Shown piece after piece: positions 5,830 to 22,695 of a stretch of 64,000 nt of DNA (positions are counted from its first letter, which is position 1; each line of letters opens with the position of its first letter). Source of the DNA: Arthrobacter sp. CAN_C5 (GTDB taxonomy: Bacteria; Actinomycetota; Actinomycetes; Actinomycetales; Micrococcaceae); NCBI RefSeq assembly GCF_017875735.1, contig NZ_JAGGMZ010000001.1, positions 310,001-374,000 of the forward strand, written 5' to 3'. The notes beneath the pieces are model-generated. The model saw nothing but the letters and a program-made list of their open reading frames with translations, ran no database searches and was not told where the DNA came from. Both the position numbers and the translations under genes were made by a program.

Positions 5830-6042
5830 GCCGACGTCGATCAGGCGTTGGGGACCGCGGCCGTCCATGGCCGCTTCGCGCACAAAGACCTGTCCTCAAT
5901 CCTGACCGCCGGGGGCGCCCGCACCACGACCCACGCCGCGGACGAAACCCGGTCCTTGACCCAGGGCACGGCCGGGTGGGCGGCCATCGGACGTCCACCC
6001 GGTGCCGGCCGTGGTGAGACCGGGCTGGAGGAAAGCGCATGA
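5830..6042 (+). pseudogene. istA: Disconnected C-terminal part of istA
   Basis: In-frame continuation after the amber codon: ADVDQALGTAAVHGRFAHKD and onward to GLEESA, typical of the IstA C-terminus. It ends in ATGA (6039-6042), overlapping the istB start. Only reached by readthrough of TAG at 5827 or in sister copies without the mutation. Confidence 0.75.
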
Positions 6043-6818
6043 GCCCGGTCCCGGTCACCGCGCCCGTCCTGCCGGCGGACCTGGAGGCGCTGATGCGGCA
6101 GCTGAAGATGCCCTACGCGCGGGCTCTGGCACCGGAGTTGATCGCGACCGCCCGTGCGCAACGCTGGGAACCGGCCGAGGTCATCAAGGCCCTCTTCACC
6201 GAGGAAGTCGCTGGCCGGTCCCGGTCCATGCTCGCCACCAGGCGTAAAGCCGCAGGGTTCCCGACCGGGAAGACCTTCGGCACCTGGGATCCCGCCGCGT
6301 CCTCAGTCCCGCTACCGACGCAGCAGGCGCTGCGGACACTGGAATGGATCGGGCGCAAGGAAAACGTTGTCATTTGCGGGCCCTCCGGCACCGGGAAAAC
6401 GTTCTTCCTTGAAGCCCTCGGGCAGCAGGCCGTCGAGGCCGGCATGCGTGTGGCATGGTTCCGCCTTGAAGACCTCGGCGCGCTGATGCGCGCGCACCGC
6501 TCCGACGACAGCGTCACGAAAGTGGTCGCCAGGATCCTGCGCGCGGATTTAGTGGTGGTCGATGACATAGGGCTCCTGCCGGTCGGGACCGATGCCGCCG
6601 AGGGCCTCTACCGCCTTGTTGACGCAGCCTATGAGAAACGCTCCATCGCGGTCTCCTCGAATCTGCATCCCGCGGGCTTCGACGAGCTCATGCCCAAAAC
6701 CCTCGCCACCGCGACGGTCGACCGGCTGCTGCACCACGCACACGTCTGCCAAACCACCGGGGAATCGATCCGCCTCAGCCAAGCCCTGGCCGGACAAGGA
6801 GTCACGCCAATGAGCTAA
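6039..6818 (+). CDS. istB: IS21 helper ATPase IstB
   Basis: A 259-residue AAA+ (DnaA/DnaC-like) ATPase that assembles on target DNA and stimulates IstA. It shows Walker A GPSGTGKT (about residues 113-120), Walker B LVVVDDIG (about 170-177), sensor 1 AVSSNLHP and an arginine-containing C-terminal segment VDRLLHHAH. The ATG overlaps the ancestral istA stop (ATGA), so its translation was coupled to istA; the early istA stop 210 bases upstream may reduce IstB synthesis. Confidence 0.92.
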   Translation: MSPVPVTAPVLPADLEALMRQLKMPYARALAPELIATARAQRWEPAEVIKALFTEEVAGRSRSMLATRRKAAGFPTGKTFGTWDPAASSVPLPTQQALRTLEWIGRKENVVICGPSGTGKTFFLEALGQQAVEAGMRVAWFRLEDLGALMRAHRSDDSVTKVVARILRADLVVVDDIGLLPVGTDAAEGLYRLVDAAYEKRSIAVSSNLHPAGFDELMPKTLATATVDRLLHHAHVCQTTGESIRLSQALAGQGVTPMS

Positions 6819-7205: not shown

Positions 7206-9236
7206 TCAGGGGAAGTTTTGTGGTTTGGGTGGTCGAATGTGGTGGGTGAGCCAGTTGATGAGGAATCGGCTGGAGGCGGGGTGCACCCCCTGTGGTGTGT
7301 GTTGGAGTGCATGCCATGATTCCACCTCGGCGGTAGCTTGGGTTTCCTTGATGAACCCGGCGAGGGGGCAACGCTCGAGTGCCAGGGGGTGGGGTGCTGT
7401 CAGTCGGGCGAACTGCCAGTGATAGGCGAGGGCGCCAAGGGGTGTTTGTATCCGGGATAGGTGTGAGTGGAGGGTGAAGGACTCAGACCATCGGAGGCAG
7501 TCTTCTGGTGCCATCGGCTTGGCGAAATAGTAGCCTTGGCCCAGGGGCGCACCAAGGACGGTGGAGGCTTCGGTCAGGCTTTCATCTTCCAGGCCTTCGA
7601 TAACGACATTCATGCCGAGGTCCCTGCCCAGCTGGATGAGGGTCGCGATCACGCTGAGCATTTCCACGGGCCTGTCCGTGACGTGCAGGAATAGTCCGCG
7701 ATCGAGTTTGATGGTGCTGAACGGGAAGGATGAGAGCCGTTGGAGGCTGCTGTATCCGGATCCGAGATCATCCATGGCAAGGCCTACCCCCAAGTCAACG
7801 AGCTCGCGCAATGTGGTGCGCTGCTCCTCGAGGGTTATGACCTCCGATTCCAGCAGTTCCAAACCCAGCCGGTCCGGTTGGACGCCATGGTTGTGGAGAA
7901 GCTTTTGGACCAGAGCCGGTGTTGTGCCGTCGAAGAGCACTGCTGGTGGCAGGTTCACAGACACGTTATGGTGGGCACCTTTCTGGTCCCACGCCGCGAG
8001 GATTTCCAACGCCCGATCGAGGACGCCTGCGAACAACACGCGTAGCTCCTCGGTCCCGAAGTGAGGCAGGAACTCATCAGGGTACGCGACGCGTCCTTCG
8101 GGTAGCTTCAGGCGCGCCAACGCCTCGAACAGGTGCACCGACCCGTCACGAAGATCCACCACGGGCTGGAGGTGAACAAGGATGTTCCCACTCCGCAGAG
8201 CGTCTCGATAGACTTCCGGACTTGTTTCTTCTCCCGTGCTGGAGCTTTCATTGGTGTTACCGCTGTTGTAAGTGTCTTGTGAGTGGACGCTGGCGTGTTC
8301 AGCGGTCTCCCACCAGGTCGTCCCATGGTTCTTTCGTTTCTTGGCTGCGTAGAGAGCCTCATCGGCGCTGGAAAGAATTGACCGGCTGTCTGTGCCGTCT
8401 TCGGGAACCAGCGCAATGCCCAAGCTCATTCCGATCCGGACCTGGTCGCCGTCAACAGTGAAGGGTTCATTCACTGCCTCATGAATCCGGTGGAGTATTG
8501 CGGGAAGTTCTTCATTTGCGGTGCTACGGGGGATGTTTTTGAGGATCAGGGCGAATTCATCTCCGCCCATACGGGCCAGCACATCGCCTTCACGCAGACG
8601 TGAGAGCATACGTGCCGCCCACTGCTGCAAGACCGCATCACCTGCAGCATGACCCAGGGTGTTGTTGACGAGGCGGAAATCATCCAGATCAATCAGGCCA
8701 ACCGCCACCGTCACTTCCCGGTTAAGGGCACGTTTCACTGCTTCCTCCACAGCCCGTTCGGCCGCAGCCCGGTTCGGCAGCCCTGTCACAGGGTCGTGCA
8801 GGGCCAGGTTCTGCAGCTCCTCCAGCAAGGCCACGTGGTTGCTGATATCGCGTTGGATACTCACATAGTGGGTGATCGCGGTGCTGACACCGACCCGCAT
8901 CGGGATGATCTTCAAAGCGGTCCAGAAGGCGGAGCCGTTCTTACGGTAGTTAAGGATTTCCCCTTCGAAGACCTCCCCCGAAGCGAGAACGTCCCGCATG
9001 AGGCGTGTCGTGGTGGGATCGGTGCCAGGTCCCTGCATGAAACGACAGTTTCGGCCCATCAACTCGGCCTGCTCATACCCTGTCATGGCGGTAAAAGAAG
9101 CTGCAACATACACAATGGCCTGCGTGGAGTCGGTTATCAGCGCAATATCAGCGGTCGCCGTCCGGGCAGCCGCGAGCACTGCAGCGAAGCCACCTTCAAC
9201 ATCATCGTCATCGCTTTTATGCGTCAGCAAGCTCAT
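7206..9236 (-). CDS. LOV-PAS blue-light sensor with GGDEF and EAL domains
   Basis: A 676-residue cytoplasmic cyclic-di-GMP enzyme. The LOV domain (about residues 20-130) has the flavin-adduct motif GRNCRFMQG with Cys64, and the later conserved Gln in SIQRDIS; the usual FWN is FWT. The GGDEF domain has an intact GGDEF (224-228) and an I-site R215-E-G-D218. The EAL domain has FEALARL (371-373), NVSVNLPP, LELLES, DDLGSGYSS, IKLDRGLF, VIEGLED and GQGYYF, so the listed metal and catalytic positions look present. An extra C-terminal region of about 90 residues has unknown function. ATG 9236 is preferred to an upstream in-frame start because GGGAGAA precedes it and the longer N-terminus merely translates a tandem repeat. 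Light would be expected to switch the balance of c-di-GMP synthesis and breakdown. Confidence 0.88.
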   Translation of the reverse strand: MSLLTHKSDDDDVEGGFAAVLAAARTATADIALITDSTQAIVYVAASFTAMTGYEQAELMGRNCRFMQGPGTDPTTTRLMRDVLASGEVFEGEILNYRKNGSAFWTALKIIPMRVGVSTAITHYVSIQRDISNHVALLEELQNLALHDPVTGLPNRAAAERAVEEAVKRALNREVTVAVGLIDLDDFRLVNNTLGHAAGDAVLQQWAARMLSRLREGDVLARMGGDEFALILKNIPRSTANEELPAILHRIHEAVNEPFTVDGDQVRIGMSLGIALVPEDGTDSRSILSSADEALYAAKKRKNHGTTWWETAEHASVHSQDTYNSGNTNESSSTGEETSPEVYRDALRSGNILVHLQPVVDLRDGSVHLFEALARLKLPEGRVAYPDEFLPHFGTEELRVLFAGVLDRALEILAAWDQKGAHHNVSVNLPPAVLFDGTTPALVQKLLHNHGVQPDRLGLELLESEVITLEEQRTTLRELVDLGVGLAMDDLGSGYSSLQRLSSFPFSTIKLDRGLFLHVTDRPVEMLSVIATLIQLGRDLGMNVVIEGLEDESLTEASTVLGAPLGQGYYFAKPMAPEDCLRWSESFTLHSHLSRIQTPLGALAYHWQFARLTAPHPLALERCPLAGFIKETQATAEVESWHALQHTPQGVHPASSRFLINWLTHHIRPPKPQNFP

Positions 9237-9263
9237 AATTCTCCCTGGTGAGACCGAACAACA

Positions 9264-9290
9264 AACACTGCGAACACTGCGAACACTGCG
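9264..9290. repeat. Triple 9-bp direct repeat upstream of the LOV gene
   Basis: AACACTGCG occurs three times head to tail, 28-54 bp before the start codon of the minus-strand LOV-GGDEF-EAL gene. It may be a regulator binding array or simple slippage in the leader. Confidence 0.7.
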
Positions 9291-9543
9291 CCTACAAGCG
9301 CCTCCGACACCAGCACTTTCAGTGCTTTCTGCCCTCACCTGCCAAGGAGCAGGTTACCTCCGCCGTTGCTGACGCCGCCCGTACCTGCAGCGTTCCTTGC
9401 CATTCTTTACTACCGTGCTGTGCCCCATCAGTGTCGTGCGAGAACCACCTGACCTGCACTGGAAGCCGAAGTGTACGCTGAACACAACACGCTTGAGCAG
9501 CTCGGTGGTCTTCGGGCGAGAGCCATAAGGAAAGATTTTAGCA

Positions 9544-10197: not shown

Positions 10198-11118
10198 CTA
10201 GGCCGAAACGCTCCTGGCGGGCGAGGCACTTGCCGAAAACGCGGAATCGAAGAACTCCTGCAGGCGGTCGCACAGGGTCATGAATTCCGGGTGGTCGCCA
10301 TACATGAAGTCGTTGTGCCGGCCGTCGATCGTGTACAGGGTTTTGGGGGAGGACGCCGCCTCGTACAGAGACAGGGCCTCATCGTATGGGTGCAGCGTGT
10401 TGCGGGATCCGTGTCCGATGAACAGGGGCGCCGGCGCCAGATCCTTGACTGTTTTCTCCACCTTCACGTCGATGATGGATTCGGTGAACTGCAGCCGGGT
10501 GGGGTGCCCGAAACCATACACCTGGGATAGCTCCTTTCCGACGTAGTCCTCGGTAGCCGGATCCAGCGGATAGTGGGCGAAGGTGGCGCCCAGCTGTGAT
10601 TCCCCTTCAATGACCCGCCGCGTACGGTCCATGTGCACTTCGTCGAGGATTTTGGTCCATTCATCGAAGGTGTGGATCGACTTCAGCCACCGCTCACCGT
10701 CGTAAAAGCCGTTCAGCGCAGCCACACCGGCAACGTTGCGGGCCTTGCCGCCAGCGAGGACCACGTTCGCCGCGCCCATTCCCCAACCGATCAGCCCAAT
10801 CCGGTGGTCGTCCACATCCTCCTGGGACTGCATGAACGTGATGGCGTTGCGGATATCCTCAACCTGCTGCTCAATGAGGACGGTGCCCTTCGCACCCTCG
10901 CTGTCCGCCATCCCGCGGTAGTCAAAGCCCAGGCAGATGTAGCCGCGTTTGGTCATGTTCTTGGCGAACATCTTCGGGTAAAACTCGTTGAACCCCTGGT
11001 AACCGGAGTTGACGATCAACGCCGGATGCGGGCCGCCGGCCGGCAGGTCGTCCGGGTAGTACAGGGTGGCCTTCAGGCGGCTTCCCTCGCTGAAGAACGT
11101 GGTTTCTTTCTCAATCAC
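10198..11118 (-). CDS. Alpha/beta hydrolase fold protein with Gly at the nucleophile site
   Basis: A 306-residue protein of the alpha/beta hydrolase (dienelactone hydrolase-like) fold: ALIVNSGYQGFNEFYP (oxyanion region), FDYRGMADSEG, a nucleophile-elbow segment IGLIGWGMGAANVV, and late GHGSRNTLHP and GRHNDFM segments that could supply Asp and His. The elbow reads G-W-G-M-G where Ser or Cys is expected, so either catalysis is lost or a different chemistry is used. GTG start 11118 with GAAGGAAA six bases upstream. It is the last gene of a minus-strand operon whose earlier genes encode an amidohydrolase and an OpuC-type importer, so it probably acts on the imported compound or its product. Confidence 0.8.
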   Translation of the reverse strand: MIEKETTFFSEGSRLKATLYYPDDLPAGGPHPALIVNSGYQGFNEFYPKMFAKNMTKRGYICLGFDYRGMADSEGAKGTVLIEQQVEDIRNAITFMQSQEDVDDHRIGLIGWGMGAANVVLAGGKARNVAGVAALNGFYDGERWLKSIHTFDEWTKILDEVHMDRTRRVIEGESQLGATFAHYPLDPATEDYVGKELSQVYGFGHPTRLQFTESIIDVKVEKTVKDLAPAPLFIGHGSRNTLHPYDEALSLYEAASSPKTLYTIDGRHNDFMYGDHPEFMTLCDRLQEFFDSAFSASASPARSVSA

Positions 11119-11173
11119 TGTGTTTCCTTCTGTTTTCGTATGCAGAGTCTGGTGGAGCCGGGGTGGAGCCTGA

Positions 11174-12115
11174 TCAACCGATCAGGCCCTCGCTCTCGAG
11201 CCACTCGTCGGCGACGTCGCGCGGCTCTTCGCCGTCGTTGTCGATCCGGCCGTTGAGCTCGGTGATGGTCTCGTTGGTGAGCGCTTCATTGATGGGCGCC
11301 ATGATCTCGGCGATGGCGGGGTATTCGTCGAGGGTTTCCTGGCGAAGGGTCATCGCGCCCTGGTACTCGACGAAGAACGCCTGGTCGTCTTCGAGGACGG
11401 TCAATTCGTTGGAAACGATGCGGGCGTCCGTGGAGAACACTTCACCGAAGCTGCATTCCTCACCGATCTGCGTGTAGATCAGGTTCAGGTCCAGTTCAAC
11501 AACGCTGCTGAACTCGAAACCGTAGGCCTCTTCGAGGCCGGGCAGTCCGTCGTCACGGTTGATGAACTCGCTGGCTGCGCAGACCACGCCGTCGTCGGCG
11601 TTCGCCTGGATGTAGGTCGCAGCGTCACTCATGGTGGTGAGGCTGTTTTCCTCGGCGAAGCTGGTGGGAACGGCAATGCGGTAGGTGTTCTCGAACGGTG
11701 CCGGCTCCAGCCAGGCAATGTCGTTCGCCGCATCGCCTTCGACGACGGCGGCGTACAGGTCTTCGGGGACGTTCTCCGTGGTGTTGCCGAGAATGTTGAC
11801 CCAGCCGGTGCCGGTGTAATCCCAGTACATGTCGACTTCGCCGGTTTCCAGTGCTTCACGGACCGTGGCGCTGCCGGAGATTCCTGTCTTGTCCTCGACA
11901 GTTGCACCGGCGTTCTCCAAGGCGGCTGCGGTGATCTGGGCCAGCAGGATGGACTCGGTAAATTCCTTGGAGCCGACGGACAGTTCTGCGCCGGCGAGCT
12001 CACCGTCGGCGGCTGCACCACCCCCGGTGTCCCCGCCACCACAGGCGGTCAGCATCAGGACAAGGCCGGCACCAAAGGCCGTAAGGGTTTTCGCCGTAGC
12101 GGATGTTGTGTTCAT
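11174..12115 (-). CDS. OpuC-type ABC transporter substrate-binding lipoprotein
   Basis: A 313-residue extracytoplasmic solute receptor of the OpuAC/ProX family, which in known members binds glycine betaine, choline, carnitine or proline betaine. The signal peptide ends in a lipobox (LMLTACGGG, Cys about 26), so it is a lipoprotein. The mature part starts with the characteristic VGSKEFTESILLAQI and contains VDMYWDYTGTGW. It lies 28 bp downstream of a permease gene and 55 bp upstream of the alpha/beta hydrolase gene. The ligand may not be a classical osmolyte, since the operon includes hydrolases. Confidence 0.9.
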   Translation of the reverse strand: MNTTSATAKTLTAFGAGLVLMLTACGGGDTGGGAAADGELAGAELSVGSKEFTESILLAQITAAALENAGATVEDKTGISGSATVREALETGEVDMYWDYTGTGWVNILGNTTENVPEDLYAAVVEGDAANDIAWLEPAPFENTYRIAVPTSFAEENSLTTMSDAATYIQANADDGVVCAASEFINRDDGLPGLEEAYGFEFSSVVELDLNLIYTQIGEECSFGEVFSTDARIVSNELTVLEDDQAFFVEYQGAMTLRQETLDEYPAIAEIMAPINEALTNETITELNGRIDNDGEEPRDVADEWLESEGLIG

Positions 12116-12143
12116 GGTTCCTCTTCTTGTGGTTGTGATGGTC

Positions 12144-12926
12144 TTACAGCCCTTTGGGGCGCAGGAAGTCTTCGGCGATACCGGCCAGGTAATCGATGAG
12201 CAGCGCCAGGACGGCAGTCAGGGCGGCCCCGACAATTTGAATCAGGACGCGGTTGGTGGACAACCCGGCCACGATGATGTCGCCCAGGCCGCCGGCGTTG
12301 ATGTAGGTGGTGAGAGTGGCTGTGCCGACGTTGATGACCAGCGCCGTCCGCACACCGGCGAGAATGATGGGCACGGACAGCGGGAGTTCCAGCCGCCGCA
12401 GCACCCCGAACTTCGAGATGCCCATTCCCCGGCCGGCTTCCAAAACAGATTCGTCCACCTGTTCCAGGCCCACCATGGTGTTCAGCAGCACCGGGATGAT
12501 GGCGTAAAGCACCAGGCCCACCACCGCTGCCTGGAAGCCGAGGAACAGGAACGCGACGGCGAGCAGCACCAGCACGGCGATCGTCGGGACCGCCTGTCCC
12601 AGCGTGAGGATGGTCAGCACGTAGGGCCGGATCCGGCGTGTGAAGGGTCGGGTGAGCAGGATTCCCAGCGGCACGGCGACGATGAGGGTGAGCAGGGTCG
12701 ACACCGCAGTCAACTGGATGTGCTCCCAGGTTGCGGTGGCGAGCGATGCAGCATTGAGCGAGCGCGCTTCGATGCTGTCCAGTTCCCGCGAGCTGACGTA
12801 GAGGTACAGGCCCAGGCACACCAGCGCCAGGATTGCCGGCATGACCATATACCCTGCGAGGGAGCGCCGGCGGCCCCGCGGAGGGGTCTGGACGACGATG
12901 TCCTGGTCGCGTGCGTGCGTGGTCAT
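12144..12926 (-). CDS. OpuC-type ABC transporter permease
   Basis: A 260-residue inner-membrane permease (BPD_transp_1 family) with an N-terminal anchor (MPAILALVCLGLYLYV) and about five further spans. The EAA-like loop reads EAGRGMGISKFGVLRRLELP, which docks to the ATPase. Its ATG overlaps the stop of the ATPase gene (12923-12926), giving translational coupling. With the second permease (14140-14784) it forms a heteromeric channel. Confidence 0.9.
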   Translation of the reverse strand: MTTHARDQDIVVQTPPRGRRRSLAGYMVMPAILALVCLGLYLYVSSRELDSIEARSLNAASLATATWEHIQLTAVSTLLTLIVAVPLGILLTRPFTRRIRPYVLTILTLGQAVPTIAVLVLLAVAFLFLGFQAAVVGLVLYAIIPVLLNTMVGLEQVDESVLEAGRGMGISKFGVLRRLELPLSVPIILAGVRTALVINVGTATLTTYINAGGLGDIIVAGLSTNRVLIQIVGAALTAVLALLIDYLAGIAEDFLRPKGL

Positions 12927-14143
12927 GGCCGGTCACCGGCTCCCGCCGTCGGGCGTTCCGCGAGATCGGGGGCATTCTGGGCGGCGGAGGTGCTGCGCAT
13001 GGCACGGATGGCCTCGTTGATCTGGTGGATGTCCACCACGCCCTGGTAGGAGCCGGCAGAATCCACCACCAGGGTGACGCTGTTTTGTGCGGCGACCAGT
13101 TCGTTGAGTGCGTCGTTGAGCGTCGCAGTGGGTTCGACCATGCCCTCGGTCGGCACGCCGATCCCATCGAGCGATGTGCCGGAGGCCGATTGCAGATCCG
13201 TGCTGCTCGCCCAGCGGAGGGGGCGGCCGGCGTCGTCGAGAACCAGCACGGAGTCCCGCCCGCTGCTGGTTAGCACAGCCAGCGCCTGGGCAGCGTCGGT
13301 ACTCTCCGGAACCGTGGGCCAGGAGGACAGGCCGATATCGGCGACCCGGCTGAGGTTCAGCCGCTTCAGCGACGCCCCCTTGCCGATGAAGTCGGCGACG
13401 AACTGGTTGGCGGGCGCGGTGAGGATCCGTTCGGGGGTGTCGTATTGGGCGATCCGCGACGCTTCCTGCAGGATCACGATGCGGTCGCCCATCTTGATGG
13501 CTTCATCGATGTCGTGGGTGACGAAGACGATGGTCTTGCGGACCTCCGACTGCAGGCGGAGGAACTCGTTCTGCAGGCGGTCGCGGGTGATGGGGTCGAT
13601 CGCTCCGAACGGCTCGTCCATCAGCATGACATCAGGGTCCGCGCCGAGGGCCCTCGCTACCCCGACCCGCTGGCGCTGACCGCCGGAGAGTTGCTTGGGG
13701 TATCTGTCGCGGTACTCGGCAGGGGACATGTTGACCATTTCAAGCAGCTCATCCACCCGGGCAGCCACCCGTTTGTTGTCCCAGCCGAGCAGCTTGGGCA
13801 CGGTGGCAATGTTCTCGCCGATCGTCATGTGCGGGAACAGGCCCACCTGCTGGATGACATAACCGATCCGGCGCCGGAGAGTGTCCGGGTCCGCGGTGGT
13901 GACGTCTTCGCCGTCGAGAATGATGCGCCCGGACGTTGGTTCGATGATCCGGTTGATCGTTTTCATGGTGGTGGTCTTGCCGCAGCCGGACGGGCCGACC
14001 AGCACCACGATTTCGCCCTCGTAGATATCGAGGGTGAGGTTGTCGACGGCGTTCTCCTTCTGGCCGGGGAACCGCTTGGTGAGGTTCTCCAGCCGGATCA
14101 TGACCTTGCGGGGCGGCTGGGTGGCGGTGGGTGAAGTGATCAT
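12923..14143 (-). CDS. OpuC-type ABC transporter ATPase with CBS domains
   Basis: A 406-residue ATP-binding subunit. Walker A GPSGCGKTTT (about residues 53-62), Q-loop IQQVGLFPH, signature LSGGQRQRVGVARAL, Walker B DVMLMDEPFG and the H-loop FVTHDIDEA are all present. Residues about 270-390 form a tandem CBS pair, as in OpuA/OpuC ATPases where it senses ionic strength. The gene overlaps both permease genes by 4 bp (ATGA), so the three subunits are made together. Confidence 0.93.
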   Translation of the reverse strand: MITSPTATQPPRKVMIRLENLTKRFPGQKENAVDNLTLDIYEGEIVVLVGPSGCGKTTTMKTINRIIEPTSGRIILDGEDVTTADPDTLRRRIGYVIQQVGLFPHMTIGENIATVPKLLGWDNKRVAARVDELLEMVNMSPAEYRDRYPKQLSGGQRQRVGVARALGADPDVMLMDEPFGAIDPITRDRLQNEFLRLQSEVRKTIVFVTHDIDEAIKMGDRIVILQEASRIAQYDTPERILTAPANQFVADFIGKGASLKRLNLSRVADIGLSSWPTVPESTDAAQALAVLTSSGRDSVLVLDDAGRPLRWASSTDLQSASGTSLDGIGVPTEGMVEPTATLNDALNELVAAQNSVTLVVDSAGSYQGVVDIHQINEAIRAMRSTSAAQNAPDLAERPTAGAGDRP

Positions 14144-14784
14144 CGGATTCCTTGGGAGGTTGTGAGCCTGCGGATGACGTAGAACAAGACATCGGACAGA
14201 ACGGCGAGAACAATGATGCCGAGGGTGCCGGCAAGGACGAGATTAACGGCCACTGGCGTGCCAACGCGGGCCAGCCCGGTGAAGATCATTTCGCCGTAGC
14301 CGGGGCCGAGAACGATCGACCCGATGGCCGCAATGCCGAGCAAGACCAGGGAGGTCACGCGGACACCGGTGATGATCACCGGCCACGCCAGGGGCAGTTC
14401 GATCCGCATCAGCTGCTGCCTGCGGCTCATGCCCATGCCGCTGGCGGATTCGACAATGGCCGGATCCACTTCCCGGAGCCCGGTAATGGTGTTGCGGATG
14501 ATCGGCAGCAGCCCGTACATGGTCAGCGCAACCACCACCGGCATGGCCCCGAGGCCGAGCGGGCCGATCAACAAGATGAAGAGCGCGAAGGAGGGGACGG
14601 TCAGGAACGCGCCGGCGACGGCGAGCACCGCCTCGCGTGGTCGGGGACGCCGGTAGGTGGCGATGCCTAGTCCCACACCGATGACAGTGGCCAGCAGCAC
14701 CGAGACGCCGACGACGGCGGCGTGTCCCAGCCCGAGTTCGAGCATGTCGTCGCTGCGGTTGACGAGGAATTCGAAAAAGTTCAT
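14140..14784 (-). CDS. OpuC-type ABC transporter permease
   Basis: A 214-residue permease with about five membrane spans and the EAA-like segment ESASGMGMSRRQQLMRIELP. The ATG at 14784 has GGTGAG just upstream. It overlaps the downstream ATPase gene by four bases. About 100 bp separate it from the amidohydrolase gene, with no terminator-like hairpin that I can see. Confidence 0.9.
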   Translation of the reverse strand: MNFFEFLVNRSDDMLELGLGHAAVVGVSVLLATVIGVGLGIATYRRPRPREAVLAVAGAFLTVPSFALFILLIGPLGLGAMPVVVALTMYGLLPIIRNTITGLREVDPAIVESASGMGMSRRQQLMRIELPLAWPVIITGVRVTSLVLLGIAAIGSIVLGPGYGEMIFTGLARVGTPVAVNLVLAGTLGIIVLAVLSDVLFYVIRRLTTSQGIR

Positions 14785-14885
14785 TCAGCTCACCGGTCCG
14801 GTGGTTGTTGGCGGATGGCCGACAGCTGGTCCGATTTCGCCGGCGCATGCGCTCTGGCGTGCCGGGTGGAGGGGTAGGGGAGAAG

Positions 14886-15719
14886 TCATGAAAGCACGAG
14901 CTTCCTGGGGTTGTCGGAGGCGCTGTCCCGCAGCCAGCTGTGGTCGAGGCCCCGGGAGGCCAGCCGTTCAATGAGTTCCCTCAGCGCCTGCGGGGGCTGG
15001 GGGCTGTTCGGCTGACCGGCGTCGGATGAGAGAATCAGGCGGTTACCGGCCGCGAGGGCCACCTCGGCCAGCAGCGCTTCGGTCATCTCCGGCTGATGCC
15101 AGAGCTGGTAAGCGGTGATTTCGACGTAGGCGCCGCGTTCGGCCAGCTCGGCGATCTCGGCCATGCTCATCGCTGGGACGGTATAGGACGGGTGCGTGAG
15201 TAGGAACCGGTTGATTCCATGCTTCCCGGCCTCGTCGAAGAGCCACCGGCATTCAGGAGCGCTCAGGTGTCCCGTACACAGGACGGCGTCGAACTCGGCG
15301 ATCAGATCCAGAACCAGGGAAATATTGTTCAACTGTTCGTCATCGGCCGCCAGTACCGGAGGGGTCGAAAGAGTTGAGCGGTTCAGGCTTGGTTGAAGGT
15401 CGCTCAGCCGGGGCAGTGCCGCGCTCTCCTGGGTGTGCGCGTCAGCGGTTGGAAACCAGATGACACGGCCTCCGCTGTGGAGCGTCGCTGCTACTGCAGC
15501 CGGGTTGATGCCGCCGGCCGGCCGATTGAGTGCGATGCCGCCGACGACGTCGAGTCCCGACGAGCGTGCCAGCGCCTTCGCTCGTCCGACGGTTGATTCA
15601 TGGTGCCCCTTGAGCACGAAGCCGCTGAAACCATCGGCGGCGTACTGGGCGCAGATCTGGTCGTCATAGCCGATGCGGTCAATGACGTCCGGCGCGGCGT
15701 GGACGTGGACATCAAACAT
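14886..15719 (-). CDS. DUF6282 family amidohydrolase-like protein
   Basis: A 277-residue predicted metal-dependent hydrolase of the amidohydrolase (TIM-barrel) type. MFDVHVHAAPDV at the N-terminus carries the H-x-H metal pair, GFVLKGHHEST a later Lys/His pair, CTGHLSAPE and LLTHPSYTVP supply further His, and LILSSDAGQPN gives the usual Asp. ATG 15719 is chosen over an upstream start because AGAAGGG lies eight bases before it and the family begins at this point. It is the first gene of the operon containing the OpuC-type importer, so it likely hydrolyses a ring or amide in the imported substrate. The exact reaction of DUF6282 is not known to me. Confidence 0.75.
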   Translation of the reverse strand: MFDVHVHAAPDVIDRIGYDDQICAQYAADGFSGFVLKGHHESTVGRAKALARSSGLDVVGGIALNRPAGGINPAAVAATLHSGGRVIWFPTADAHTQESAALPRLSDLQPSLNRSTLSTPPVLAADDEQLNNISLVLDLIAEFDAVLCTGHLSAPECRWLFDEAGKHGINRFLLTHPSYTVPAMSMAEIAELAERGAYVEITAYQLWHQPEMTEALLAEVALAAGNRLILSSDAGQPNSPQPPQALRELIERLASRGLDHSWLRDSASDNPRKLVLS

Positions 15720-16039
15720 CTGCCGAGGCCCTTCTGCCTGCCAGTACCGCTGCGGGCGGGGTGAATCCACTCTGATTTGTTCCCGGGTTCATGGGGACGA
15801 CTCTAAGAGCGAAATGTGAGCTGCACAACACTGTGGTGCAAAATATGCAACCTTGGGTTTATGCTGTTCCGCCGTGCGGTTCCAACGGTTCGCTGTGGAA
15901 CCCCGGATGGGGAGTTGCGATTTATGCACTGATGATTGCGGCTTCAGCATCCGCCATGAATAGTGATGCACATGATTACCGGAGTGACACTCACTCCGCC
16001 GACGAGGTGGGTTATCCCGCTCAAGAAGGGATTTTGCCA
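15720..16039. promoter_or_regulatory. Divergent control region of the importer operon and nitrilase gene
   Basis: 320 bp separate the divergent starts. It contains TGCAAAATATGCA (15837-15849, palindromic TGC-N7-GCA) and a perfect 7-bp inverted repeat GGAGTGA-CAC-TCACTCC (15981-15997). A related TGT-N7-GCA sequence lies before the IclR gene (16949-16961). These are candidate operators for the IclR-family regulator. Confidence 0.4.
15981..15997. promoter_or_regulatory. Palindrome GGAGTGA-N3-TCACTCC
   Basis: Perfect dyad 43 bp before the nitrilase GTG start. Plausible operator for the IclR-type regulator or another dimeric repressor. Confidence 0.4.
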
Positions 16040-16891
16040 GTGAGCAAAGCTGCTGAGGATGGGGCCATTGAAAGCGACACACTGAAGGTCAGGCTGCTGC
16101 AGACCGATCCCACGCTGGGCGATGTCGACGGCAACCTGCGGGAGATTGACTCGTTGATCGCAGCTGCCACCGACAGCGATCTGGTGGTGCTCCCCGAACT
16201 GGCGACCCACGGTTACCACCTGAGCGAGGTACCTGATGCGATGCCGCTGCAGCCTACGGATCAGCGTCTACTGGGTCTGAGTAGGCATGGCCCGGCAGCT
16301 GTGGTGGGCTTTGCCGAAGCCTTCCGTCACCACACCTTCAACAGTGCGGCCCTGCTGAGCCACGGCGAGGCCCGGATTCAGCGCAAGATGTTCCTGCCGA
16401 CGTACCGCGGATGGGAAGAGCGCAAGCATTTCCGTCCCGGCGGGCAGTTGCACTGTGAGGACCTTTTGAACACCCGCCTGTCGGTGCTGATCTGTAACGA
16501 TGCCTGGCAGCCCGCCATTCCCTGGCTCGCCGCTCATGCAGGCGCCGAAGTTTTGGTGGTACCCGTCAATAGCGCAACGAGCCACGTGGGCGTAGCAACG
16601 GAGCGTGCCTGGGAAATTCTCCTGCTCCACGCTGCAGTGGTACTGCAGTCTTTTGTGGTCTTCGTCAACCGGTGCGGGGAGGAAAACCAGCGGGACTTCT
16701 GGGGTGGTTCGCGCGTGATCCACCCCTCCGGTGAAGTTCTCGGCCAACTGGGATCAGACCCCGGCCAGCTGGATGTTGAACTCGATCTGGGGGAGCTGCG
16801 GCTCCTGCGGCGCCAGTGGCCCCTTCTGCAGGAATCCAGGGCAGACCTCATTGCCCGCGAGGCTGGCAGGCTGGCGGCGGACGACCTCTGA
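16040..16891 (+). CDS. Carbon-nitrogen hydrolase (nitrilase superfamily)
   Basis: A 283-residue amidase-type enzyme with the nitrilase-superfamily Glu-Lys-Cys triad: Glu in LPELATHGY, Lys in RKMFLPTY and Cys in LICNDAWQPAIPWLAA. It would hydrolyse a C-N bond (amide, carbamoyl or nitrile) in the cytoplasm. GTG at 16040 is preferred since AGAAGGG sits about nine bases before it and the superfamily fold starts shortly after; the frame is open for 83 more codons upstream but those look non-coding. It is divergent from the importer operon and is followed by the IclR gene on the same strand. Confidence 0.82.
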   Translation: MSKAAEDGAIESDTLKVRLLQTDPTLGDVDGNLREIDSLIAAATDSDLVVLPELATHGYHLSEVPDAMPLQPTDQRLLGLSRHGPAAVVGFAEAFRHHTFNSAALLSHGEARIQRKMFLPTYRGWEERKHFRPGGQLHCEDLLNTRLSVLICNDAWQPAIPWLAAHAGAEVLVVPVNSATSHVGVATERAWEILLLHAAVVLQSFVVFVNRCGEENQRDFWGGSRVIHPSGEVLGQLGSDPGQLDVELDLGELRLLRRQWPLLQESRADLIAREAGRLAADDL

Positions 16892-16948
16892 CGCCGTCGC
16901 CAACCACCGCTGCCGCTGAATCAGGGTTGTGCTTCCTGCATCAACAGT

Positions 16949-16961
16949 TGTAAATATCGCA
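16949..16961. promoter_or_regulatory. Possible IclR operator upstream of its own gene
   Basis: TGTAAATATCGCA resembles TGCAAAATATGCA at 15837-15849 (shared TGYAAA...GCA). It lies 22 bp before the iclR-type start, a position suited to autoregulation. Confidence 0.3.
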
Positions 16962-16983
16962 TCTGGCTTCTAGGCTTTGCGTC

Positions 16984-17766
16984 ATGAGCACGGGGCAGAA
17001 GCAAAGTGGGGCAGCCAAGATCATGGCCGTGCTGGAAGTGCTAGGTACGGCAGATGCGGTGCTGCACCCCCACGGAATGACCGTTTCGGAGGTCTCCCGG
17101 GCGTTGGGCCGCGATAAATCAATCGTTTCCCGGCAGCTGAAGAGCCTGTTGGAGTCCGGGCTGGTATCTAGGGGCCCAGCCGGATGTTTTGAGTTGAGCT
17201 GGCGGTTGTACGCTTTGGCTTCCCGTGCCGGTGATCAGCATCTTGCCAAGAAAGCCGGCCCAGTGATGCGCAAGCTCACGGACCATGTCCGTGAGCGCAC
17301 CCACCTCACAGTCCTCAGCGACGGTGAAGTGCTGACCGTGCGGTCTGAGAGCTCGCGCCGTTCCATCGAGACCCAGGGATGGGTGGGCCGGACCATCCCG
17401 GTGGGACGCAGCTCCAGCGGCATGGCGCTACTGATGGATCATGACGACGACCAGATCCTGGAGATCGCACACGCGTCGGACCCGAACGGGTCAAAGAGCC
17501 AGGCGGTAGCGTTCCTTGAGGAAATCAAACGGTCCCGGCAGCGGCAATATTCGGTGGCGAACCGAATCTTCGACCCGGAGATCATTGGCATCGGCACGCC
17601 GGTGCGGGACTTCTCGGGCAGGATCATCGCCGCGCTGAACATCTCTGGCCCGGCACTGCGGATCGAGGACCACGTCCACCCGTTCGGCTCGCACCTAGTG
17701 GCGGCAGCAGGAAGCCTGCGGCAGCCACTTCCGTCCGCGGGGCCCGGAGCAATTGGACACTCCTAG
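16984..17766 (+). CDS. IclR family transcriptional regulator
   Basis: A 260-residue regulator. A winged helix-turn-helix occupies about residues 10-75 (MTVSEVSRALGRDKSIVSRQ), followed by the IclR effector-binding domain with VRSESSRRSIETQGWVGRTI, PVGRSSSGMALL and the typical DPEIIGIGTPVRDFSGRIIA. It lies directly after the nitrilase gene and probably controls the divergent uptake/hydrolysis genes in response to the substrate. Confidence 0.9.
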   Translation: MSTGQKQSGAAKIMAVLEVLGTADAVLHPHGMTVSEVSRALGRDKSIVSRQLKSLLESGLVSRGPAGCFELSWRLYALASRAGDQHLAKKAGPVMRKLTDHVRERTHLTVLSDGEVLTVRSESSRRSIETQGWVGRTIPVGRSSSGMALLMDHDDDQILEIAHASDPNGSKSQAVAFLEEIKRSRQRQYSVANRIFDPEIIGIGTPVRDFSGRIIAALNISGPALRIEDHVHPFGSHLVAAAGSLRQPLPSAGPGAIGHS

Positions 17767-18516: not shown

Positions 18517-19200
18517 ATGCTTAGCTCACCCAGCGGACGTCGCGGAGGGTACTTTGCCTCAGCAGCAGTTGCCGCCCTCATCCTTACAGGCTGCGCAACA
18601 GAGGCCCCGGCCCAAAGCCAGGAAACGGCGTCGCCGCCGACGGTTTCCTCCACGCCCGCGGTGCCGGCTCCCGCGCAGACATCTGCGCCGCCCGCACCTG
18701 AAACTCCCGTGGCGTCGGCCCCCGCTCCTACCCAGTTGACGGTCCTGCCCGAGTCTGCCCCGGTTTCATTTAGCATCCCCGCAATCGGCGCGGGATCAGA
18801 GCTCCTTAGCCTCGGGCTGCGCGACAACGGCTCACTCGAAGTCCCACCCGATGGCCCCGGCGCCCCCGCGAGCTGGTACAACGACTCCCCCACACCCGGT
18901 GAACGCGGACCCGCTGTCCTCCTCGGCCACGTCAACGCCACCGACGGCGGCCCAGGCGTCTTCGCCGACCTACGCAGCCTCAAGGCCGGCGACACTATCG
19001 AAGTCGCCCGCGAAGACGGCACCACAGCAACGTTCGTCTTTGATCGCGGCGAGCAGTACCCCAAAGACGAGTTCCCGACCCAGACGGTCTACGGCAACAC
19101 CGAGGGATCCGAACTACGCCTGATAACCTGCGACGGCTATGACCCGGATACCGGTGAATTCGACGACAACTACGTCGTCTACGCAAAGCTAGTCACCTAA
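18517..19200 (+). CDS. Class F sortase-like lipoprotein
   Basis: A 227-residue secreted protein. The N-terminal signal ends in a lipobox (ALILTGCAT, Cys about 27), followed by a Pro/Ala/Ser linker to about residue 80 and a sortase beta-barrel. The conserved His is in VLLGHVNATDGGPGVF and the Cys in RLITCDGYDPDTGEF. In class F sortases a catalytic Arg normally lies about 12 residues after the Cys; here that segment reads FDDNYVVYA, so Arg appears replaced by Asp. No substrate with a sorting signal is seen nearby. Transpeptidase activity is therefore uncertain. Confidence 0.8.
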   Translation: MLSSPSGRRGGYFASAAVAALILTGCATEAPAQSQETASPPTVSSTPAVPAPAQTSAPPAPETPVASAPAPTQLTVLPESAPVSFSIPAIGAGSELLSLGLRDNGSLEVPPDGPGAPASWYNDSPTPGERGPAVLLGHVNATDGGPGVFADLRSLKAGDTIEVAREDGTTATFVFDRGEQYPKDEFPTQTVYGNTEGSELRLITCDGYDPDTGEFDDNYVVYAKLVT

Positions 19201-20653: not shown

Positions 20654-21046
20654 ATGTCTGAGGACATGGAGAAGCGTTCGCGCTTTGGGAAGCGCCGCCG
20701 TGAGAACGCCCCGAAGGGGACGAAGAAGCGCCGTGAGGTGTGGGTGACAGCTGAGGAAGAAGCTCAGCTGTTGATCCGGGCCGAGCGTGAAGGCGTGACC
20801 GTTCCTAAGCTTTTGATCAGTGCTGCTACCTCTGATGCGGTAGAGACTCCCACGGAGCGCCGTGCGATTGTGGCCGAGCTTATGGCGGTTCACACGTTGC
20901 TGGGGCGAGTGTCGAATAACGTCAACCAGATCGCCCGTCACGCGAACGCTGGGGATGAGTTCCCGAAGGATGCCGCAGCTGCGCTGGCGTATGTGCGAGA
21001 GGTCGCCCAGCGCATTGATGCAACCGTTGAGGGGATCAACCCGTGA
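20654..21046 (+). CDS. mobC: Mobilization relaxosome protein MobC
   Basis: A 130-residue basic protein with the MobC family pattern: a basic N-terminus (KRSRFGKRRRENAPKGTKKR), a ribbon-helix-helix-like EVWVTAEEEAQLLIRAEREG, and the conserved LLGRVSNNVNQIARHANAG. MobC binds oriT and helps strand separation for the relaxase. ATG 20654 follows GAGAGGCGG. Its stop overlaps the mobA start by four bases (21043-21046), indicating translational coupling. Confidence 0.88.
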   Translation: MSEDMEKRSRFGKRRRENAPKGTKKRREVWVTAEEEAQLLIRAEREGVTVPKLLISAATSDAVETPTERRAIVAELMAVHTLLGRVSNNVNQIARHANAGDEFPKDAAAALAYVREVAQRIDATVEGINP

Positions 21047-22695
21047 TCCCGAACATTACCCGTGGTTCTCGGATGGGTGGGCTGATGGTCTACCTTGCAT
21101 CCACAGACGCGGACAAGACGAAGAACGCACACACCAACCCGCACCTGGTAGCCGGGGATGCGGCAATAATGGCGTGGTACGACGACGGCACGATAGGCCG
21201 CGACGATGCACTAGCTATTGCTAAGCACTTGGATCAGCCGCACCGTAAGTTCGGCGTGGAGGTCTTGCAAAAGGATCTTCGCTGGGACGAAGCGACTAAG
21301 CAGCGCGTGGACCACGGCCACAAGCAGGCCGACGTGTGGCATTGTTCGTTGAGTTTGCGAGCTGGTGAGCGTGAGCTGACGGATCAAGAGTGGGGCGATA
21401 TCGCCAACGAGTTCGTTGATGAAATGGGTTTCACCGAAGCCAGCGGCAAAGCACAGTGCCGGTGGGCTGCGGTCAATCACGGAGTGAGCACCAATGGCAA
21501 TCACCACATACACATTGCCGTGTCACTGGTGCGCGAGGACGGCACGAAGGCATCCACCCATGGCGACTACCGCCGTGCACAGAGAACCTGCCGGGAGCTG
21601 GAGTCCAAGCACGGTTTAGAGGAACTGTCCTCAGTCCACGCGACCAGGGGATACGAGCGGGCCGAACCGCAAATAGCTGTCCGCAATGATCGGGAAATGT
21701 ACCGGGATTCTTTGTCGCGGAAAGTCCGGGCTGCTGCCACGTCGTCGCAGTCCGAAGCGCAGTTCGTCCGCCGGGGACGTGACACGGGGCTGCTGATGCG
21801 CCCACGGTATGAGAAGGGCACCACTGATGTAGTGGTGGGCTACTCGGTAGCCGAACGCCCGCCCCGAGGGGAGCGCCCCGTTTGGTACGGCGGCGGGAAG
21901 CTAGCCGGCGATCTTGGGTTAGGTCAGCTGCGCAAGGAATGGCCCGACACTCCCCAGGATGCGACCGCTGCCGCTGCGGAGTGGAACGCCGCCGCTCGCA
22001 ACAAGCGACAAGTCGCACCCGAGACAGTCAGTGCAGCACCTACACCTGAGTTGTGGGAGAAGCACACCCAGCAGGCTAAGGCCCTGGCAGATCAGTTACG
22101 CGAGATCCCACCGACCGATCACGCGACGTGGGCGAAAGCTGCCCGGCAGGCGTCAGGAACATTCGCGGCGTGGTCGGTACAGTTCGAACAGAAGCCGGGC
22201 CCGCTGGCCGCGACGGCGGCTGAGCTGTCTAAGACAGCCCAGCTGCGCAACCCCCGCGAACACTCAAAGCCGGTAGCTCTGCCGTCCCTGGCAGGGTCCG
22301 CCATGTTGCTCATGGCAGCGAACGGCAAGAGCAAATCAGCGGCGCACACAGCCATGATGGTCCAGCTGATGCGCACCGCCCGCGCCGTGTACGACATGCA
22401 CAACCAGTCGGGCCGGTTGCGGGAAAGCCAGCACCTTTACCGGGTACTGACCACGGAGCTTGCCCCGTTCTCCAAGACCATGCCCGCTCTCGTCACGGCT
22501 GGACCAGGACAGGCACCAGCAGCCACGGTTGGCACGCCAGCGAAGCAGGCCGAGGGCCGACAGCTCACAGCGGCGGAACTTGCCGGGGGAGACTTCGCGG
22601 CGACCAGGGCAGGCAGTGTCGTCCCATCGAAAACCGAACCGGCGAAACGCTACCAACCGACCACACCAGAACCGGATAAGGGCTACGGGCGCTAA
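21043..22695 (+). CDS. mobA: Relaxase/mobilization nuclease MobA
   Basis: A 550-residue relaxase (Relaxase PF03432, MOBP-like) that nicks oriT and covalently leads the transferred strand. The N-terminal ~230 residues are the nuclease: GSRMGGLMVYLAST, then VWHCSLSLRAGERELTDQEW, and the three-histidine metal motif in HGVSTNGNHHIHIAVSL (about 150-165). The C-terminal half is helical and variable. Start overlaps mobC. No type IV secretion genes are visible, so transfer would need a helper element. Confidence 0.9.
   Translation: MIPNITRGSRMGGLMVYLASTDADKTKNAHTNPHLVAGDAAIMAWYDDGTIGRDDALAIAKHLDQPHRKFGVEVLQKDLRWDEATKQRVDHGHKQADVWHCSLSLRAGERELTDQEWGDIANEFVDEMGFTEASGKAQCRWAAVNHGVSTNGNHHIHIAVSLVREDGTKASTHGDYRRAQRTCRELESKHGLEELSSVHATRGYERAEPQIAVRNDREMYRDSLSRKVRAAATSSQSEAQFVRRGRDTGLLMRPRYEKGTTDVVVGYSVAERPPRGERPVWYGGGKLAGDLGLGQLRKEWPDTPQDATAAAAEWNAAARNKRQVAPETVSAAPTPELWEKHTQQAKALADQLREIPPTDHATWAKAARQASGTFAAWSVQFEQKPGPLAATAAELSKTAQLRNPREHSKPVALPSLAGSAMLLMAANGKSKSAAHTAMMVQLMRTARAVYDMHNQSGRLRESQHLYRVLTTELAPFSKTMPALVTAGPGQAPAATVGTPAKQAEGRQLTAAELAGGDFAATRAGSVVPSKTEPAKRYQPTTPEPDKGYGR

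Follow-up and report, generated by a model that had tools for sequence, protein, structure and literature searches.

The 64,000-nucleotide stretch of Arthrobacter sp. CAN_C5 analysed here (the window, positions 310001-374000 of a single-contig genome of 3,860,921 bases) carries a cassette of eight genes. They encode an OpuC-type ATP-binding cassette (ABC) importer, a DUF6282 protein, a nitrilase-superfamily hydrolase, an alpha/beta-hydrolase-fold protein (ABH) and an IclR-family regulator. The eight genes form a real unit and their linkage exceeds chance, since 16 of 18 other cassette loci hold all eight, in three orders. The best reading of this unit, which we adopt tentatively and with a confidence slightly short of even, is an inducible pathway that breaks down a small amide, imide or lactam and ends in a 2-hydroxy acid. 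It is built on co-conservation, conserved palindromes, family memberships, the predicted fold of the DUF6282 protein and the lost triad residues of ABH. The features are, by position in the window:

10198-11118, minus strand: ABH, alpha/beta-hydrolase-fold protein with a GWGMG elbow (Gly in place of the nucleophile), Asn instead of the acid, His retained
11174-12115, minus strand: receptor, the substrate-binding lipoprotein of the OpuC-type importer, OpuAC domain
12144-12926, minus strand: ABC permease (Pfam)
12923-14143, minus strand: ABC ATPase with CBS domain, above the TIGR01186 (proV subfamily) cut-off
14140-14784, minus strand: ABC permease (Pfam)
14886-15770, minus strand: DUF6282 protein, amidohydrolase-like predicted fold; ATG at 15719 as possible conserved start
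15815-15849: pair of operator-like palindromes (TGYRN5YRCA) with centres 22 bp apart
15915-15928: single similar operator-like site, 5′ of the nitrilase gene
16040-16891, plus strand: nitrilase-superfamily hydrolase, Glu/Lys/Cys; ORF 15791-16891 shortened to a likely GTG start
16948-16961: single similar operator-like site, 5′ of iclR
16984-17766, plus strand: IclR-family regulator

As the first-pass annotation of this DNA had claimed, the eight open reading frames (ORFs) are open at these positions, and a six-gene run on the minus strand diverges from the nitrilase and iclR genes. The ATGA overlaps that it reported, each of four bases, are two in number and join three genes, permease with ATPase and ATPase with permease. 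Its gene assignments were borne out by Pfam: OpuAC (E-value 5.6e-56) for the receptor, BPD_transp_1 for both permeases, ABC_tran and CBS for the ATPase, DUF6282 (2.1e-55), CN_hydrolase (4e-29), and several alpha/beta-hydrolase models on ABH. The regulator contains both HTH_IclR and IclR_C, as expected for an IclR-family member.

Cassette loci were picked through DUF6282 matches. Twenty stretches were fetched around such matches in genomes of the family, from 44 places listed; eleven hold the cassette and nine (L048-L056) hold other kinds of DUF6282 gene without it. Among 14 further named loci, seven (L057-L061, L068 and L070) are places already covered by the 20 stretches, and the seven new ones bring the cassette loci besides the window to 18. 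The loci with the complete set come from several groups of soil bacteria, namely Arthrobacter, Paenarthrobacter, Streptomyces and Micromonospora. The remaining two are cut by contig ends, L041 showing four genes and L064 three, and the L037 nitrilase is broken by an assembly gap. Other actinobacteria have the eight genes together in three orders. In order A (the window, L037-L040 and L042), iclR and nitrilase diverge from DUF6282-permease-ATPase-permease-receptor-ABH. Order B, in Paenarthrobacter and relatives, Streptomyces and Micromonospora, reads ABH-iclR-permease-ATPase-permease-receptor-nitrilase-DUF6282. Order C, seen in L047 and compatible with the visible part of L041, reads iclR-permease-ATPase-permease-receptor-nitrilase-DUF6282-ABH. 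Between the window and the order B loci, identity is high for ABH (72-82%) and DUF6282 (70-74%) and lower for the ATPase (56-63%), the permeases (42-57%) and the receptor (41-44%). The earlier proposal that the importer belongs together with two hydrolases of amide type and a regulator encoded nearby is supported: they are a unit kept across genera, with shared operator-like sites, and the DUF6282 and nitrilase genes do accompany the importer.

The distribution of DUF6282 is patchy, since it was matched in 8 of 97 relatives (7 above the cut-off), which include the window genome and 6 of 37 other genomes of the genus. In the family, 41 of 395 genomes have a match. The closest DUF6282 matches among the named loci come from Arthrobacter. 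At E ≤ 1e-40, ABH was found in 12 of the 395, the same 12 whose DUF6282 gene sits in a cassette, and in none of the other 29 with a DUF6282 match. An ABH relative at E ≤ 1e-30 occurs in 6 of 396 genomes of the phylum, the window genome counted. Before their contigs end, two of these (G715, locus L105; G743, L108) show every cassette gene except the nitrilase, seven in all, in a fourth order with DUF6282 diverging from iclR-ABH-permease-ATPase-permease-receptor. In a third (G752, L106), ABH, nitrilase and a GlcD-type FAD oxidase gene stand in a row. The relative in G547 is of the Ser type. In G571 (L107, 8619-10413), a Gly-elbow ABH gene diverges from a Cyclase-family (PF04199) gene, and no cassette was present in the 11 kb covered.

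Between the DUF6282 and nitrilase genes, upstream of the former, lie the two 13-base palindromes. The pair is the single match of its pattern in the window, where a mean of 0.01 was expected and a match was reached in 1 of 100 shuffles. A pair of this pattern with the same spacing occurs in 16 of the 19 cassette loci (window included) and in none of nine control loci with other DUF6282 genes; the pattern had been defined by visual inspection of the window, five order A and eight order B loci, so that those loci are not independent of it. Three of the five cassette loci outside the definition (L041, L047, L063, L064, L066) have the pair. It was absent from stretches L089, L090 and L105-L108. 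Its placement differs among loci. Four of six order A loci have it 5′ of DUF6282, L037 has it 5′ of iclR, and in the B and C loci it precedes ABH, iclR or both. Because paired palindromes stand upstream of cassette genes in most loci and in no control, control of the cassette by the IclR-family protein appears likely, and this protein would bind to the palindromes. An operator weight matrix, which ranked the three cassette sites among its four best matches in the window, was dropped for the plain pattern because of mixed registers.

Membership of the DUF6282 protein in its family is clear (187.9 bits against a gathering score of 26.8, PF19799). No PDB sequence was related to it at E ≤ 1. Its structure, modelled from 14 rows with a predicted local distance difference test (pLDDT) score of 76.6 and a predicted template modelling (TM) score of 0.80, was compared with known structures by Foldseek. 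Among the 50 matches listed of 1534, most were of the amidohydrolase superfamily, with some other barrels. They include a lactonase (E-value 8.6e-7), isoaspartyl dipeptidase, TatD, allantoinase and dihydroorotase, at TM-scores of about 0.5-0.6, and the top ones among those listed are Geobacillus lactonase entries. Metal ligands of the amidohydrolase superfamily follow the pattern HxH, His, His, Asp. In the DUF6282 protein, H22, H24, H168, H193 and D250, invariant in the 14 rows, fit this pattern and are candidate ligands, and the model has the TIM-barrel fold. The protein is thus predicted to fold like amidohydrolases such as the phosphotriesterase-like lactonases. It differs from these in its lack of a PDB sequence relative, in an identity of 10-16% in the structure matches listed, and in having a Pfam family of its own.

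The nitrilase belongs to its superfamily by score (CN_hydrolase, 102.1 bits against 23.2) and by its Glu, Lys and Cys, whose alignment columns do not vary across 19 rows, as the triad named in the first-pass annotation would have it. Its long ORF, 15791-16891, spans the operator region. Because the Pfam match begins at residue 99, and because the part upstream covers the conserved palindrome pair, translation probably starts at the GTG at 16040, following AAGAAGGGA, instead of at 15791.

ABH shares fold family and length with UilS-type and 7qjm-type alpha/beta hydrolases, but has Gly for their Ser and Asn for their Asp. In 18 of 18 cassette rows, GWGMG replaces GxSxG and Asn replaces the acid, and His267 is invariant. 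The Priestia protein described below and four distant relatives likewise have GWG or GWA with Asn; Ser and Asp are present in the six outgroup rows. In a 21-row tree, a single branch separates the 15 Ser-less rows from the others (support 99/99; 99% of 200 bootstraps), in a topology that was rooted at midpoint and contains several long outgroup branches and one row, L090, of unusual composition. A catalytic alpha/beta hydrolase has Ser, Cys or Asp as nucleophile at the elbow, together with an acid, and ABH has neither. Because Gly and Asn occupy these positions in all 18 rows and the rows without Ser group together in the tree, ABH is probably not an ordinary hydrolase, as judged from its sequence. 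Of the earlier name "Gly-elbow hydrolase", the Gly elbow stands, while "hydrolase" is doubtful because both nucleophile and acid are lost. A structure model of ABH was poor (pLDDT 65.1) and was set aside unused.

A further gene accompanies the cassette. It encodes a protein of about 950 residues. In the representative from L045, a single chain holds FAD_binding_4, FAD-oxidase C, iron-sulphur (Fe-S) and CCG domains and resembles YdiJ and GlcD/GlcF, among the D-2-hydroxyacid dehydrogenases, most closely. This FAD/Fe-S dehydrogenase gene lies within the fetched stretch of 16 of the 18 cassette loci. In order B it follows DUF6282, except in L043, where it is upstream of ABH; the order A loci have it beyond ABH, in convergent orientation where seen whole. 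The enzyme is predicted to be of the 2-hydroxyacid type, and we assign it no exact hydroxy acid. Two close copies occur in the window genome, at distances of about 64 kb and about 20 kb from the cassette (88% and 77% identical to the L039 protein). Near the 20-kb copy are a truncated IclR gene (79% identical), a DUF6282 fragment of 58 residues (36%), a single double palindrome, an MmgE/PrpD gene and a GntR gene divergent from the FAD/Fe-S dehydrogenase gene. Together these (L088 5640-12120; L088 is C1:290001-310000) have the appearance of a relic left by a second cassette, and IS21-like genes lie near it (L088 1253-3681). An MmgE/PrpD gene, 69% identical, is found inside the cassette of L038, between nitrilase and iclR.

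A plasmid of Priestia filamentosa from cigar leaves carries ABH (55% identical), DUF6282 (30%), GlcF, and GlcD with its frame broken in the record. Its neighbours are a GntR gene, a two-domain lipoprotein nitrilase (26% to that of the window) and a gene annotated as a sodium:glutamate symporter, the record's name only, with no Pfam match at 1e-5. No OpuC importer was present in the stretch seen. By annotation, then, the enzyme set is kept on this plasmid with a different transporter.

In the proposed pathway, the IclR-family protein would control a substrate-induced cassette through the paired TGYRN5YRCA operators, and the dedicated OpuC-type importer would take up a small nitrogen-bearing carboxylate or zwitterion. 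The DUF6282 protein, as a metal-dependent amidohydrolase, would open a cyclic amide or imide, and the nitrilase-family enzyme would hydrolyse the resulting amide and free ammonia. The product would be a 2-hydroxy acid, which the FAD/Fe-S dehydrogenase would convert to a 2-oxo acid for central metabolism. ABH, with its nucleophile lost, might perform a needed step that does not involve a Ser acyl-enzyme, for example as a lyase, decarboxylase or isomerase. Chemistry leading from imide over half-amide to 2-hydroxy acid exists, since the fungal nicotinate (hxn) pathway (PMC9304392) has a cyclic imidase yielding alpha-hydroxyglutaramate and an amidase yielding alpha-hydroxyglutarate. The cassette may follow the same logic of imidase, then amidase. 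As that paper describes them, however, HxnM and HxnN come from other enzyme families. The hxn pathway also has no OpuC importer and begins from oxidation of the pyridine ring.

Several points weigh against this pathway. We infer the enzyme activities, the order of the steps and the substrate or ligand. None of the 10 NCBIfam families listed for the nitrilase reaches its curated cut-off, no specific NCBIfam enzyme model does so for ABH, and the L045 dehydrogenase lies far below the cut-off of the D-2-hydroxyglutarate dehydrogenase YdiJ (443.2 against 1350 bits). The nitrilase diverges strongly between orders A and B (40-46% identity). The dehydrogenase gene was not seen in the stretch of L038, nor in L041 before the contig ends, and both copies in the window genome lie outside the window. 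The strict palindrome pair is missing from L041, L042 and L064, and the pattern's partial dependence on its source loci counts here too, as do the low TM-scores and middling model confidence of the DUF6282 protein. Finally, the chain gives ABH no clear job. None of its steps needs a Ser-less ABH, and this protein may be either a lyase-like enzyme that relies on its His or one that serves in binding.

The stronger version of the proposal, an undescribed pathway from imide or lactam over half-amide and 2-hydroxy acid to 2-oxo acid, with an ABH clade that has lost nucleophile and acid and performs a His-based reaction such as that of a lyase or decarboxylase, is possible though on the unlikely side. 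Somewhat less probable still is that ABH binds a ligand or a partner, for instance passing the ligand to IclR, and that the pathway needs DUF6282, nitrilase and dehydrogenase only. In animal neuroligins, loss of Ser to Gly accompanies non-enzymatic roles; the loss of both catalytic residues throughout the cassette rows and in four distant Ser-less relatives and the position of ABH next to iclR in order B point the same way. Against it stand the invariant His267, the location of ABH within the operon in orders A and C rather than merely beside iclR, and the fact that ABH is the best-conserved protein between orders A and B. A lactone- or quorum-signal-degrading cassette is very improbable. The best NCBIfam match of ABH is indeed the UilS lactonase (NF047920, E-value 5e-27), and the DUF6282 model resembles phosphotriesterase-like lactonases, with Geobacillus entries as its best listed matches. 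That reading was set aside because the UilS score, 95.3 bits, falls short of the cut-off of 400 and the triad is lost; it would also leave the nitrilase and the importer unexplained.

The other alternatives concern the importer, whose OpuAC receptor (PF04069), two permeases and proV-type CBS-ATPase (349.1 bits against the TIGR01186 cut-off of 326.6) place it with the OpuC/ProU-type osmoprotectant importers. It differs from these in its fixed catabolic-type enzymes and its iclR gene with conserved palindromes, and in a setting with three further OpuAC receptors in the genome, because of which ordinary osmolyte uptake is probably served elsewhere. The family is known mostly for osmolytes; even so, an ordinary osmoprotectant importer standing by chance beside unrelated hydrolases is the least probable reading of all, given these other receptors, the shared palindromes and an identical gene set found in three orders. 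The substrate favoured by the first-pass annotation, a quaternary ammonium or betaine-like compound bearing an amide or ring, we consider distinctly unlikely. The nearest PDB sequences of the receptor are choline/nicotine-type sensors and betaine binders, and of its residues invariant in 16 rows (Tyr97, Tyr100, Tyr145, Arg187, Phe227, Tyr251) the four Tyr and Phe227, aromatic positions retained from the receptor family, would suit such a ligand. But this receptor family binds non-quaternary solutes too, the Priestia plasmid has a transporter annotated as another kind, and a non-exhaustive search recognised no N-demethylase or trimethylamine-releasing enzyme among the conserved genes.

In the surroundings of the cassette, an IstB-like ATPase gene (window 6039-6818) and a relaxase-like gene (21043-22695), both named by eye, lie at some distance on either side, and the region may therefore be mobile. 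Downstream of ABH, an ORF of 710 residues (7206-9338) reads by eye like a PAS-GGDEF-EAL signalling protein. A lipoprotein gene at 18517-19200, presumably sortase-like by its motif, is duplicated beside the relic (L088 13230-13778; DNA 84% identical over 522 bases). Another kind of DUF6282 (30-34% to that of the window) occurs with genes for a major facilitator superfamily transporter, IclR, Cyclase-family and RraA-like proteins in two genomes (L053 4309-10676; L054 9556-16526), names among which Pfam confirmed only the Cyclase assignment in L054. A Roseomonas marmotae plasmid (L092 8150-12241) has DUF6282 (36%) in the company of genes for an aldolase/citrate lyase, a tripartite tricarboxylate receptor and MmgE/PrpD, of which MmgE/PrpD is found inside the L038 cassette too.

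Inducible cassettes of importer plus enzymes are of a well-known kind; new are this combination and the Ser-less ABH within it. In the open-licence PMC literature, no paper found names DUF6282, and the titles and opening lines of abstracts found neither describe this gene set nor name a Ser-less bacterial alpha/beta-hydrolase clade. DUF6282, a family of unknown function, now has a predicted fold and is linked with an importer, with a regulator and its candidate operator, and with a probable kind of end product; the substrate can therefore be sought by simple growth, induction and binding tests. ABH places a conserved clade without the Ser, within a very large enzyme fold, in a metabolic setting where new chemistry would be directly testable.

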